From: Candidatus Tectomicrobia bacterium
Lineage (GTDB): Bacteria; UBA8248
DNA length: 64,000 nucleotides
Assembly (NCBI GenBank): GCA_016192135.1
Contig: JACPUR010000017.1
Span: 301,160-365,159, forward strand
Direction of reading: 5' to 3'
Both the position numbers and the translations under genes were made by a program. The number at the start of each line of letters is the position of its first letter. Position 1 is the first letter of the stretch. The notes below the pieces were generated by a model that saw only the letters and a list, made by a program, of their open reading frames with translations, ran no database searches and had not been told where the DNA came from. Positions 35,941 to 41,434 of the stretch are shown piece after piece.

Positions 35941-36005
35941 AGGCCCCTCATCCGGCGGATTTACGCCACAACGGGTTCCGGCCATTGACAGGGAGAAGCC
36001 GGTTC

Positions 36006-37106
36006 ATGTCCACGACGAACGGCATCCGCTACGGCGCCGACGTGAAGAAAAGGATGGAGGCGGTCATCCTGACCGCGCCCATGAAGTTCGAGATCGGCGA
36101 GGTCGAGACCCCGGCCCCGGGACACGGCGAGGTCCTCGTCCGGGTGGAGAGCACCACCATCTGCGGGACCGACATCGAGATCATCAAGGGAAACCACGCC
36201 CCCCGCTGGCCGCCCAGGTACCCGGCCATCCTGGGGCACGAGTGGGCGGGGAAGGTCGTGGCCATGGGTCCGGGCACCGAGGGCTTCGGCCTCGAGATGG
36301 GCGACCACGTGGCCGGCACGAGCCACGCCGGCTGCGGTGCCTGCCGCATGTGCCTCACCGGCCGCTACAACCTTTGCCTGAACTACGGCAAGGCCGTGAC
36401 CGGCCACCGGCAGTACGGCCACATCACCCAGGGGTCCTACGCCGAGTACGTCGTCAACAACATGCGGGCCCTCCACAAGATGCCCAAGGAGATGCCCTTC
36501 GACGTGGGCTCCTGCGTGGACCCGGCCGGCTGCGGCCTCTGGACGGCCAAGCGGGCCGGCATTAACCCGGGGGACACCGTGGTGATCCTGGGCTCGGGGC
36601 CCATCGGGGTCTTCGCCTTCGAGTCGGCCCGCGCCCTGGGCGCCGGGCGGGTGATCGTGGTGGGGGGAGGCAAGCGCCTCGAGATCATCGCCGCCCAAGG
36701 CGCCGAGACGGTGGACTACCGCAAGGGCGGGGTGCCGGAGAAGATCAAGGCCCTGACGTCCGGCCGGATGGCCAACGTCGTGCTCGAGACCGCCGGGACC
36801 ACCGACAGCTTCAAGTGGACGGTGGACTGCGGCGGCAAGGGCGCCCGCATCGGCATCACCGGCATCCCGGACAACATCCCCGACCTGGCCTGGAAGCGGG
36901 TGGTCCTCGAGGAGATGGACATCTTCGGGGTGCGCGCCAACCCCAACTGCGGGGACGAGGTGGTGGCCCTCATCCAGGCCGGGCGCATCAGGGTCCAGCC
37001 CTATATCACCCACCGCTTCCCCCTGCGGCAGTACAAGGAGGCCTTCGAGGCCTTCGCGGCGCGCAAGGACGGGGCCCTGCTGGTCAATCTGACGCCCGGC
37101 GCATGA
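36006..37106 (+). CDS. Zinc-dependent alcohol/polyol dehydrogenase (MDR family)
   Basis: This 366-residue medium-chain dehydrogenase has catalytic zinc ligands in ICGTDIEIIKG and GHEWAGKVVA. The structural-zinc cysteines are in HAGCGACRMCLTGRYNLC (written here in part), and the Rossmann motif is VILGSGPIGVFAFE (about 190-203). The pattern is closest to threonine or sorbitol dehydrogenase-like enzymes. The ATG at 36006 follows AGGGAGAAG. It is 12 bp upstream of queF. Confidence 0.92.
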   Translation: MSTTNGIRYGADVKKRMEAVILTAPMKFEIGEVETPAPGHGEVLVRVESTTICGTDIEIIKGNHAPRWPPRYPAILGHEWAGKVVAMGPGTEGFGLEMGDHVAGTSHAGCGACRMCLTGRYNLCLNYGKAVTGHRQYGHITQGSYAEYVVNNMRALHKMPKEMPFDVGSCVDPAGCGLWTAKRAGINPGDTVVILGSGPIGVFAFESARALGAGRVIVVGGGKRLEIIAAQGAETVDYRKGGVPEKIKALTSGRMANVVLETAGTTDSFKWTVDCGGKGARIGITGIPDNIPDLAWKRVVLEEMDIFGVRANPNCGDEVVALIQAGRIRVQPYITHRFPLRQYKEAFEAFAARKDGALLVNLTPGA

Positions 37107-37118
37107 ACGGGGAACCCG

Positions 37119-37517
37119 ATGGCGGACGAGCGGAAGTACGGCGCGCGGATGATCGCGGAGGCGAGGCTTGAGGCGGTGCCCAACCCCTCGCGGGAGCGGG
37201 ACTATCTCATCGACTTCACCATCCCCGAGTTCACCTGCCTCTGCCCCATCAGCAACTTTCCGGACTTCGCCATCATCCGCATCCAGTACGTGCCGGGCGA
37301 GACCATCGTGGAGCTCAAGTCCCTCAAGCTCTACATCAACCGCTTCCGCGACCAGGAGATCTTCCACGAGCAGGCGGTGAACCGGATTCTGAACGACCTC
37401 GTCGCGGCCTGCTCGCCCAAGTGGGCCTGGGTGGAGGGCGACTTCAACGTCCGCGGCAACATCAAGACCAAGATTCGCGCCGTCCACGGCACCCGCCCTC
37501 CGGGCGTGCCTGACTGA
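37119..37517 (+). CDS. queF: NADPH-dependent 7-cyano-7-deazaguanine reductase
   Basis: QueF reduces preQ0 to preQ1 in queuosine biosynthesis. The 132-residue length is the short (YkvM-like) form. The catalytic cysteine is in [14 protein letters not shown] (about 39-52). The QueF motif [20 protein letters not shown] (about 68-87) is intact. It lies between the zinc dehydrogenase and tenA; no other queuosine genes are in the window. Confidence 0.96.
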
Positions 37518-38462: not shown

Positions 38463-40724
38463 ATGAACGACTATAAGGTGGCGGGGAAGGGCCTGGCGAG
38501 GATTGACACGCCCGACAAGGCGGCCGGCACGGCCTGCTTCGGGGCCGACGTGCCGGCGGTCCGGCCCCTGGCGGGCCGGGTCCTCGGGACCCCGCACGCT
38601 TTCGCGCGCGTCCTCTCGGTGGACGCCTCCCGGGCGAGGAAAATCCCCGGGGTGCGCTACGTGCTCACGCGCGACGAGTGCCCGGACATCCGCTTCGGCG
38701 GGGACATCAAGGATCAGAGCTGGCTCGGCAAGGACGGCTACGTGCGCTACGTGGGCGATCCCGTCGCCGCCGTGGCGGCCGAGACGCCCGAGGCGGCCCA
38801 GGCGGCGATAGACGCCATCCGGGTGCGCTACGAGCCCCTCGCCCCCGTCGTCGACCCCATCGCCAGCCGGGAGGGGAGGACCCTCCTCGTCCACGAGGAC
38901 TGGAAAGAGCTCAAGGGCCTGGGGCCCCAGGCCGAGGGCAACGTTCTCGGCCGTTTCGAGAAGACGCTCGGCGATCCCGGCGCCGCCTTCGCCCAGGCCG
39001 ACGTGGTGCTCGAGCACACGTTCCGGACCCCTCACGTGCACGCGGGCTACATCGAGCCCCACGCCTGCACGGCCGAGGCCGGGGCCGACGGGAAAGTGAC
39101 CGTCTGGACCACCACCCAGGACGCCTGGGCCATCCGCGCCGACGTGGCCGAGGCGCTGGGCCTCCCGGCGACCAAGGTGCGGGTCATCCCCACCGAGATC
39201 GGCGGGGGCTTCGGCTCCAAGCTCAAGAGCATCTACGAGCACATCGCCGCCCTCCTGGCGCTGAGGACCGGCCGGGCCGTGCGCATGGAGATGTCCCGCG
39301 AGGAGGACCACCGGGCGGTCAACCCGCGCCATCCCCACGTTTTCACCATCAAGACCGGAGTGAAACGGGACGGCACCCTGGTCGCCCGCGAGATGGACGT
39401 CACCATGGATCACGGCGCCTACGGGCGCGGCGCCCCCTTCCAGTGCAGCAGCAAGATGGTCATGGCCTCCGCCCTCTACCGCGTCTCGGGCGTCCGGGTG
39501 AAGGCTTGCACGGTCTACTCCAACGCCCCGGTGGCAGGCCCCGTCCGCGCCCCCAGCGGGCCGCAGTACCACTTCGCGACCGAGGTCCACACCGACATCG
39601 TCGCCCGCGAGCTGGGCATGGATCCCCTCGAGTTCCGCCGCAAGAACGCCCTTCGGCCGGGCGACAAGACCCTGGCTGGCGTGACCCGCGACGACGCCAT
39701 GGCGAAGGTGATGGAGCGGGCCGCGGCCGAGGTGCGCTGGGGCCAGCCCGTCCCCCGCCGCCCGGACCTCCCGGAGGAGGAAGGCTGGCGGTACGGCCGG
39801 GGCATCGCCTGCGGCTTCTGGCACGGCCCGGGCGAGGCCTCGAGCTGCTCCCTCCGGCTGAATCCAGACGGCACGGTCCAGATGATGTCGGGCACGGTGA
39901 ACCTGACCGGGGCCAGCACCTCCCTCTGCCAGCTCGTGGCCGAGGAGCTGGGCCTGGGGCTCGACCACGTCCGCTACGCCGTGGGGGACACCGACACCGT
40001 CCCGCAGTCCACCGCCGCCTCGGGCAGCAAGGCGACGCGCTCGGTGGCGGGGGCCGCGATGAAGGCGGTGAAGGACCTCCGCAAGAAGATCCTGGAGGTG
40101 GCGGGGGCCAAGCTGGAGGCCGCGCCGGGGGACCTGCTCATCGAGGAGGGGAAGGTGAAGGTGGCCTCCGCGCGGGACCGCTTCCTCACCCTCGCTCAGG
40201 TGGCCAAGGCCGCGCCCGAGGTGACCGGCTACCTCATCGGAGACGGGGCGAGCCCCCGGCCCCCGGCCTGCCCCATCTACACCGCGCAGGCGGCCGAGGT
40301 GGCGGTGCACCCGGAGCTCGGCGAGGTGCGGGTGCTGCGCCTCGTGGGCGTCCAGGACGTGGGCTTCGCCATCAACCCCCTCTCGGTCGAGGGTCAGATC
40401 GAGGGGGCGATGGTCCAGGGAATGGGCCTAGCCCTCATGGAGGAGCAGTTCCGCCACCCGAACGGGCGGCTCAGCGGAGAAACCCTGCACGAGTACCTCC
40501 TCCCGACCAGCATGGACATGCCGGAACTGAAGGTCATCCTCTACGACAACCCGGCCGAGGGGACCCCCTTCGGAATGCGCGGGGTGGGGGAGCCCCCCAT
40601 CGTGGCCACCGCCGCCGCCATCGTGAACGCGATCCAGGACGCGGTGGGCGTGCCCTTCTTTTCCATTCCGGTCGGCCCCCATCATCTGCGGAAAGCCCTC
40701 GCTGCCGTGGGCAACGGCGCTTAA
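38463..40724 (+). CDS. Xanthine dehydrogenase-family molybdopterin-binding subunit
   Basis: This 753-residue molybdenum hydroxylase large subunit has the family start DKAAGTACFGADV, the substrate-domain EIGGGFGSKLKS (about 240-251), the Moco-binding region GPVRAPSGPQYHFATE (about 359-374), and the late catalytic glutamate in MRGVGEPPIVATAAA (about 706-720). Related enzymes oxidise aldehydes, purines or aromatic CoA thioesters. The [2Fe-2S] and FAD subunits normally encoded next to it are missing from both sides, so partners must be elsewhere. It is followed after 44 bp by the AhpD-like gene. Confidence 0.92.
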   Translation: MNDYKVAGKGLARIDTPDKAAGTACFGADVPAVRPLAGRVLGTPHAFARVLSVDASRARKIPGVRYVLTRDECPDIRFGGDIKDQSWLGKDGYVRYVGDPVAAVAAETPEAAQAAIDAIRVRYEPLAPVVDPIASREGRTLLVHEDWKELKGLGPQAEGNVLGRFEKTLGDPGAAFAQADVVLEHTFRTPHVHAGYIEPHACTAEAGADGKVTVWTTTQDAWAIRADVAEALGLPATKVRVIPTEIGGGFGSKLKSIYEHIAALLALRTGRAVRMEMSREEDHRAVNPRHPHVFTIKTGVKRDGTLVAREMDVTMDHGAYGRGAPFQCSSKMVMASALYRVSGVRVKACTVYSNAPVAGPVRAPSGPQYHFATEVHTDIVARELGMDPLEFRRKNALRPGDKTLAGVTRDDAMAKVMERAAAEVRWGQPVPRRPDLPEEEGWRYGRGIACGFWHGPGEASSCSLRLNPDGTVQMMSGTVNLTGASTSLCQLVAEELGLGLDHVRYAVGDTDTVPQSTAASGSKATRSVAGAAMKAVKDLRKKILEVAGAKLEAAPGDLLIEEGKVKVASARDRFLTLAQVAKAAPEVTGYLIGDGASPRPPACPIYTAQAAEVAVHPELGEVRVLRLVGVQDVGFAINPLSVEGQIEGAMVQGMGLALMEEQFRHPNGRLSGETLHEYLLPTSMDMPELKVILYDNPAEGTPFGMRGVGEPPIVATAAAIVNAIQDAVGVPFFSIPVGPHHLRKALAAVGNGA

Positions 40725-40768
40725 GCGGTTCGCGTTCATGTAAAAGTAAAAAAAGGAGAGGCGGGAGC

Positions 40769-41434
40769 ATGGCGGTGAACGAGAAGACGGGCCTCACGCC
40801 GGAGATGGGCGTGAGCGAGGAGATGATGGTCTGCCCGGTGCCCCGGGTGCCCTTCGTTTCTCCGGACAACATCCCGGAGGACATCCGGGAGGAGCTCATG
40901 CCCAGCTACAACTGGGCGGTGGAGATGTGGGGCACGGTGCCGCGCTACCTCCAGATGCTGGGGCACGCCCCGGTCCTGGTCGAGGCCTGGATGCTGCTCG
41001 ATCAGAAGCTCCGCACCAACCGGCTCAAGACCGCCCCGGACTACATCCTCATCATGGAGCTCGTCATCGTGAAGACGGCGCTCCACACCCAATGCAACAA
41101 CTGAGTGGGGCACAACGTGGAGCTCGGTCGAGCTCTGGGCCTCACGGCGGAGCAGATTGACCTCCTCGACGGGGATCGGTGGGAGGGGAGCCCCCTCTTC
41201 TCCGGCAAGGAGAAAGCGGCCATCCGCTGGGCGGACGAGGTGACGAACCTGAGGGCCAAGCGGAACGACTTCGCCTTCGAGGAGATGAAGAAGCACTTCA
41301 CCACGCGCCAGATCGTGGAGCTCACCTTCGTGTGCGGCATGTGGAACCTCTCCGGCCGGGTGGCCGAGGCCCTCCGCCTCGTGGTCGAGCCGCCCGGGGG
41401 GCGCATCGCGTTCCAAGAAAAGGACATGCGCTAG
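40769..41434 (+). CDS. Predicted selenoprotein: AhpD/carboxymuconolactone decarboxylase-like with CxxU active site (in-frame TGA at 41102-41104)
   Basis: The frame opens at an ATG preceded by AAAAGGAGAGGCGGGAG and runs to 41434, interrupted only by TGA at codon 112. Reading TGA as selenocysteine gives 221 residues. The residues around it are ELVIVKTALHTQCNN-U-VGHNVELGRALGLT. This reproduces the AhpD catalytic layout: Glu twelve residues before the first Cys, C-x-x-U, then His three residues later. Cys-containing relatives typically read C-x-Y-C-V-G-H at the same spot, so U replaces the second redox cysteine. The downstream 109 codons remain in frame and read as the family C-terminus (TNLRAKRNDFAFEEMKKHF). 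A hairpin starts immediately after the TGA. Expected role is a thiol peroxidase or disulfide reductase. The alternative is a nonsense mutation splitting the gene. Selenocysteine machinery is not in the window. Confidence 0.78.
41105..41145 (+). promoter_or_regulatory. Candidate bacterial SECIS element
   Basis: Directly after the TGA, 41105-41111 pairs with 41139-41145 (7 bp, one G-U). Above an internal loop, GAGCTC (41120-41125) pairs with GAGCTC (41130-41135) around the tetraloop GGTC (41126-41129). The apical GGU lies 21 bases after the TGA. The E. coli fdhF SECIS also has GGUC in its apical loop at nearly the same distance. The match to the bacterial SECIS layout is by eye. Confidence 0.68.

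Follow-up and report, generated by a model that had tools for sequence, protein, structure and literature searches.

A predicted CMD/AhpD-like CxxU selenoprotein gene beside a molybdenum hydroxylase gene in an uncultured Candidatus Tectomicrobia bacterium

The window analysed here, a stretch of DNA of 64,000 nucleotides, belongs to a 3.9-Mb MAG that is 97% complete and is most closely related to genomes with the labels Candidatus Tectomicrobia and Nitrospinota. It carries a putative selenoprotein gene immediately downstream of a molybdenum hydroxylase gene, with the following features at and around the locus:

35985..37106, + strand: zinc-type alcohol dehydrogenase (ADH) gene, part of a conserved gene order
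37119..37517, + strand: QueF-like nitrile reductase gene, part of the same conserved gene order
38463..40724, + strand: molybdopterin-binding (XdhA/CoxL-type) large subunit of a molybdenum hydroxylase (Pfam MoCoBD_1/2, Ald_Xan_dh_C)
40754..40759, + strand: ribosome-binding site AGGAGA, 5' of the ATG, recognised from its sequence
40769..41434, + strand: predicted CMD/AhpD-like selenoprotein gene, 221 aa, active site CNNU (Cys109, Sec112, His115, Asn116)
41102..41104, + strand: in-frame UGA, codon 112, probably read as selenocysteine (TGA in 19 of 19 close relatives; Cys in homologues)
41120..41135, + strand: predicted bacterial SECIS hairpin, stem GAGCUC/GAGCUC, apical loop GGUC (pairing, covariation, and codon constraint)

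Translation of 40769-41434 gives 111 codons, a TGA, 109 codons, and a TAG stop, for 221 residues in all, exactly the frame that an earlier note on this DNA had read. The well-spaced ATG described there also holds, with AGGAGA upstream and a start codon position common to the gene and its orthologues, and the TGA does lie three residues past the conserved Cys, in the order CNNU (Cys109 to Sec112) and then VGH.

The UGA is strictly conserved. All 19 distinct sequences compared have TGA as codon 112, none has Cys there, and the frame is kept; this set, compiled from nine orthologues of public genomes and more from the genome set, comprises the studied gene, 15 orthologues, and three close paralogues, 59-87% identical and drawn from independent assemblies, so that a chance in-frame TGA is excluded. 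Purifying selection is seen on both sides of the codon in the same 19 sequences, with pooled pN/pS values of 0.34 before the UGA and 0.24 after it, which are rough because pooled synonymous differences are near saturation; the nearest pairs give dN/dS values of 0.32-0.52 upstream of the TGA and 0.24-0.25 downstream. A Cys aligns with Sec112 in a 37%-identical homologue without Sec at that place (L030; Roseibium), as does the second Cys of the CxxC in 2gmy and 2ijc; Cys homologues at position 112, which the earlier note had proposed to look for, are therefore present. That the gene is a pseudogene, its TGA a nonsense mutation or sequencing error and its halves decaying, has a negligible probability: selD is missing from the assembly and the two halves would be annotated as fragments, but the orthologue comparison refutes it, neither a frameshift nor a different sense codon (the pattern that the earlier note had linked to a pseudogene) occurring in the 19 sequences, and both the purifying selection and a covarying hairpin downstream of the TGA speak against decay.

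This hairpin, GAGCUC-GGUC-GAGCUC, begins 16 nt after the UGA and can pair fully. In a wider set of 49 sequences (orthologues and paralogues), 87.1% of cells are paired, against 71.9% in shuffles, and covariation is 0.503 against 0.260, none of 500 shuffles reaching as high, with the caveat that kinship alone can lift sequences above such shuffles without any structure. Two further results are free of this weakness: pairing falls to 58% or less in the 49 sequences when the partner strand is slid, and the highest synonymous constraint among 212 six-codon windows is found in the one starting at codon 118, inside the hairpin (0.86, against a mean of 0.51). The helix is the best among all hairpin registers tested, and the GGTC loop is present in 38 of the 49 sequences. 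At the loop-closing pair, C-G (29 sequences) gives way to U-A (17 sequences) through a synonymous Leu codon change coupled with an Arg/Gln change. Among 17 close relatives, all cells are paired, including one compensatory change from A-U to G-C; covariation is weak within this group because the hairpin hardly varies, and the covariation support comes from the wider set. An Rfam search around the UGA gave no match near a gathering score.

Much of the machinery for selenocysteine insertion is encoded in the same genome. Genes for selA (540 bits, over the cut-off) and selB (389 bits) adjoin each other on contig C15, and a tRNA-Sec with anticodon TCA is found on contig C28; tRNA-Sec scores over the cut-off in 16 of the 18 genomes of the family. 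The earlier note had made selA, selB, selC, and selD a check on its reading, and the first two and the tRNA-Sec were recovered, whereas no selD over the cut-off was found in the MAG. Fourteen of 17 family relatives (G001-G017) do carry a selD over the cut-off, the selD gene in each case containing an in-frame TGA itself, and its absence here is therefore likely to be an assembly gap. The selD candidates in the MAG were rejected as weak partial matches, the best being a ThiL-like gene beside a ThiE-like gene (names that come from a reading of the translations).

An open frame under TGA as a residue does not by itself prove Sec, and general read-through or a code change of the Trp type might instead place another amino acid at this codon. 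Two neighbouring genes, ADH and QueF, are terminated by TGA, however, so that the codon is an ordinary stop here and a general code change is not indicated; all ten orthologous CMD genes measured terminate with TAG or TAA. With Cys at the homologous position and selA, selB, tRNA-Sec, and a SECIS element at hand, such a reassignment can be set aside as exceedingly improbable. The conserved TGA, the insertion genes, the covarying GGUC-loop hairpin, the codon constraint, the purifying selection, and the Cys homologues together argue that 40769-41434 is an intact gene for an AhpD/CMD-like CxxU selenoprotein whose UGA is read as Sec (probability about 0.96, judged from sequence comparisons), in agreement with the 221-residue selenoprotein that the earlier note had proposed. 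An uncultured lineage would thus gain a well-supported subgroup of selenoproteins whose SECIS covaries.

The AlphaFold model of the product is all-helical, with a mean pLDDT of 70.9 (about 90 at residues 131-180 and about 70-80 round the active site), and its structure matches (6k40, Z 18.3; 2prr, Z 18.0) extend over residues ~22-212; the predicted fold is AhpD-like. With CMD (PF02627; Pfam gathering cut-off 23), the studied protein scores 21.7 bits and its orthologue L024 24.9 bits, and paralogues and a Cys homologue score 35-56 bits. The Deinococcus and Ralstonia peroxidase-related AhpD-like proteins (6k40, 2prr, and 2oyo) are the best structural matches, with Z about 18, but they are Cys enzymes without Sec and only ~20% identical to the studied protein. 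The all-helical fold is also that of P. aeruginosa PA0269 and M. tuberculosis AhpD, whose Cys pair aligns with Cys109 and Sec112 (PMC3141380); the N-terminus of the studied protein is ~60 residues longer than that of PA0269.

In AhpD-like proteins of known structure, two Cys and a His are reported as invariant, with the His at the second Cys +4 (PMC3141380). The corresponding position (U+4) is Asn116 here, and His115 stands one residue earlier, at U+3; the HN pair recurs in 54 of 60 paralogues. Glu97 does lie 12 residues before Cys109, as the earlier note observed, but the AhpD signature that the note saw in it is not upheld: of 60 CxxU/SxxU proteins, 39 have E at the position and 12 have Q, and the close relatives have E or Q, so that Glu97 is no conserved signature. 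In two orthologues (L028 and L029), Ser at codon 109 replaces the first Cys (SDYU) and the Sec is kept, so that a CxxU selenenylsulfide is not obligatory across the group. The AhpD-like label is consequently apt as regards fold and CxxC/U pair; it does not extend to the His position, and to the Glu only in part. Taken together, Asn116/His115, the E/Q exchange, and SDYU favour Sec as the essential residue and speak against an assumed AhpD proton relay, which, as far as the alignments indicate, is not fully kept.

Selenoproteins of this kind have long been described, and what is new here is the membership. Knowledge of AhpD-like CxxU selenoproteins goes back to 2005, with members described in the Sargasso Sea and GOS surveys (PMC1088965; PMC2398784, AhpD-like 1 and 2), in line with what the earlier note says of marine metagenomes, and CxxU AhpD-like and CMD selenoproteins are reviewed in PMC13188914. 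The Sargasso/GOS proteins resemble the present one in CMD/AhpD homology, the CxxU motif, a predicted SECIS in the coding region, and Cys homologues elsewhere; they differ, in a comparison made at the level of these features and not sequence by sequence, from the CNNU followed by xxHN and the adjoining molybdenum hydroxylase seen here. The best NCBIfam matches, NF053654 (GroundWater_YciW, YciW-related (seleno)protein; 50 bits against a cut-off of 310) and TIGR01926 (peroxidase-related enzyme; 28.7 bits against 81.8), share the domain and motif, with scores so far under the curated cut-offs that the protein is not a member of either family as defined; no NCBIfam model reaches its cut-off for the studied subgroup. 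A search of a plasmid collection returned distant matches only, below 60% identity.

In the mechanism proposed here, SelB, Sec-tRNA(UCA), and the GGUC-loop SECIS hairpin would together place Sec at position 112, and the product would be an all-helical AhpD-like protein of 221 residues whose redox pair is CxxU. Sec112 may act as the nucleophile on a peroxide, disulfide, or similar electrophile; Cys109 could then resolve it as a selenenylsulfide, and a thiol or dihydrolipoyl donor might regenerate the selenoprotein. Thiol/peroxide chemistry of this sort is somewhat favoured, although the displacement of the His by one residue and the variability of Glu97 mean that peroxidase chemistry is not assured. 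The same two features fit an alternative that competes with the proposed chemistry and not with the recoding, namely that the selenoprotein is a reductive enzyme acting on a specific electrophile (for example in dehalogenation, as Bmp8), the CMD selenoproteins of the clade serving different substrates. The Bmp8 debrominase has the same fold and matches the model with Z 16.4, the paralogue expansion is large, and the existence of SxxU forms points to a reaction for which the first Cys is dispensable; the peroxidase-related AhpD-like proteins are nevertheless the closer structural matches, and such a role on a specific electrophile seems less likely than thiol/peroxide chemistry. With its SxxU variants and shifted His, the group offers a way of testing what Sec does in an AhpD-like fold.

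The gene for the molybdenum hydroxylase ends 44 bp before the selenoprotein ATG. All orthologous loci examined have it as the immediate upstream neighbour, at a distance of 24-44 bp in the ten that were measured, and the neighbouring genes tested include none recognised as encoding an FeS or FAD subunit, in keeping with the orphan hydroxylase of the earlier note; four Fer2_2 genes occur elsewhere in the genome. The paralogue loci examined (mostly with flanks of ~1.2 kb) have no hydroxylase relative beside the gene, which makes the association specific, as far as tested, to the studied orthologue group. Genes for an RND permease, ADH, and QueF are also kept upstream, and with so long a conserved gene order the adjacency may simply reflect synteny inside a single bacterial family. 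Co-transcription of the selenoprotein with the hydroxylase, which it might protect or serve, for example by clearing reactive by-products, is a more speculative step than the chemistry above, and we put forward a functional link between the two only tentatively. An improbable further reading is that the single-subunit hydroxylase has the selenoprotein as its own dedicated redox partner in place of the FeS/FAD subunits missing from the locus, the selenoprotein being one line in a radiation of CMD selenoenzymes across the lineage that took up different substrates. Two loci encode, downstream of the selenoprotein gene, another molybdenum hydroxylase subunit of 37% identity (L021:7307-9586 and L022:5019-7145).

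Less expected than the selenoprotein itself are the two SxxU orthologues and a family-wide expansion of its relatives. All 18 genomes of the phylum examined (one family) carry several CMD relatives, mostly with one TGA; the counts are no lower than 4 for the present genome, 10 for G011, and 14, all TGA-bearing, for G008. The whole family thus appears to run many CMD/AhpD-like paralogues, mostly selenoproteins, which ordinary gene callers would truncate. A search of 43 genomes of other lineages with the studied protein gave a match in three of them, in no case with an internal stop, and a crude and insensitive scan of the 64-kb window gave no convincing further Sec-type TGA. The expansion may already be described in the literature; a search for selenoproteins in Tectomicrobia or Nitrospin* found no paper in the library searched. 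An unrooted tree of 60 Sec and 9 non-Sec rows implies about five changes between the two states, in a direction that the tree does not give. Three further CxxU CMD selenoprotein genes were located in the genome studied (C4:70420, C4:88166, and C21:12610; L057, L058, and L059), and two frames of G008 (L070 and L075) contain two CMD units each, one SxxC and one CxxU.
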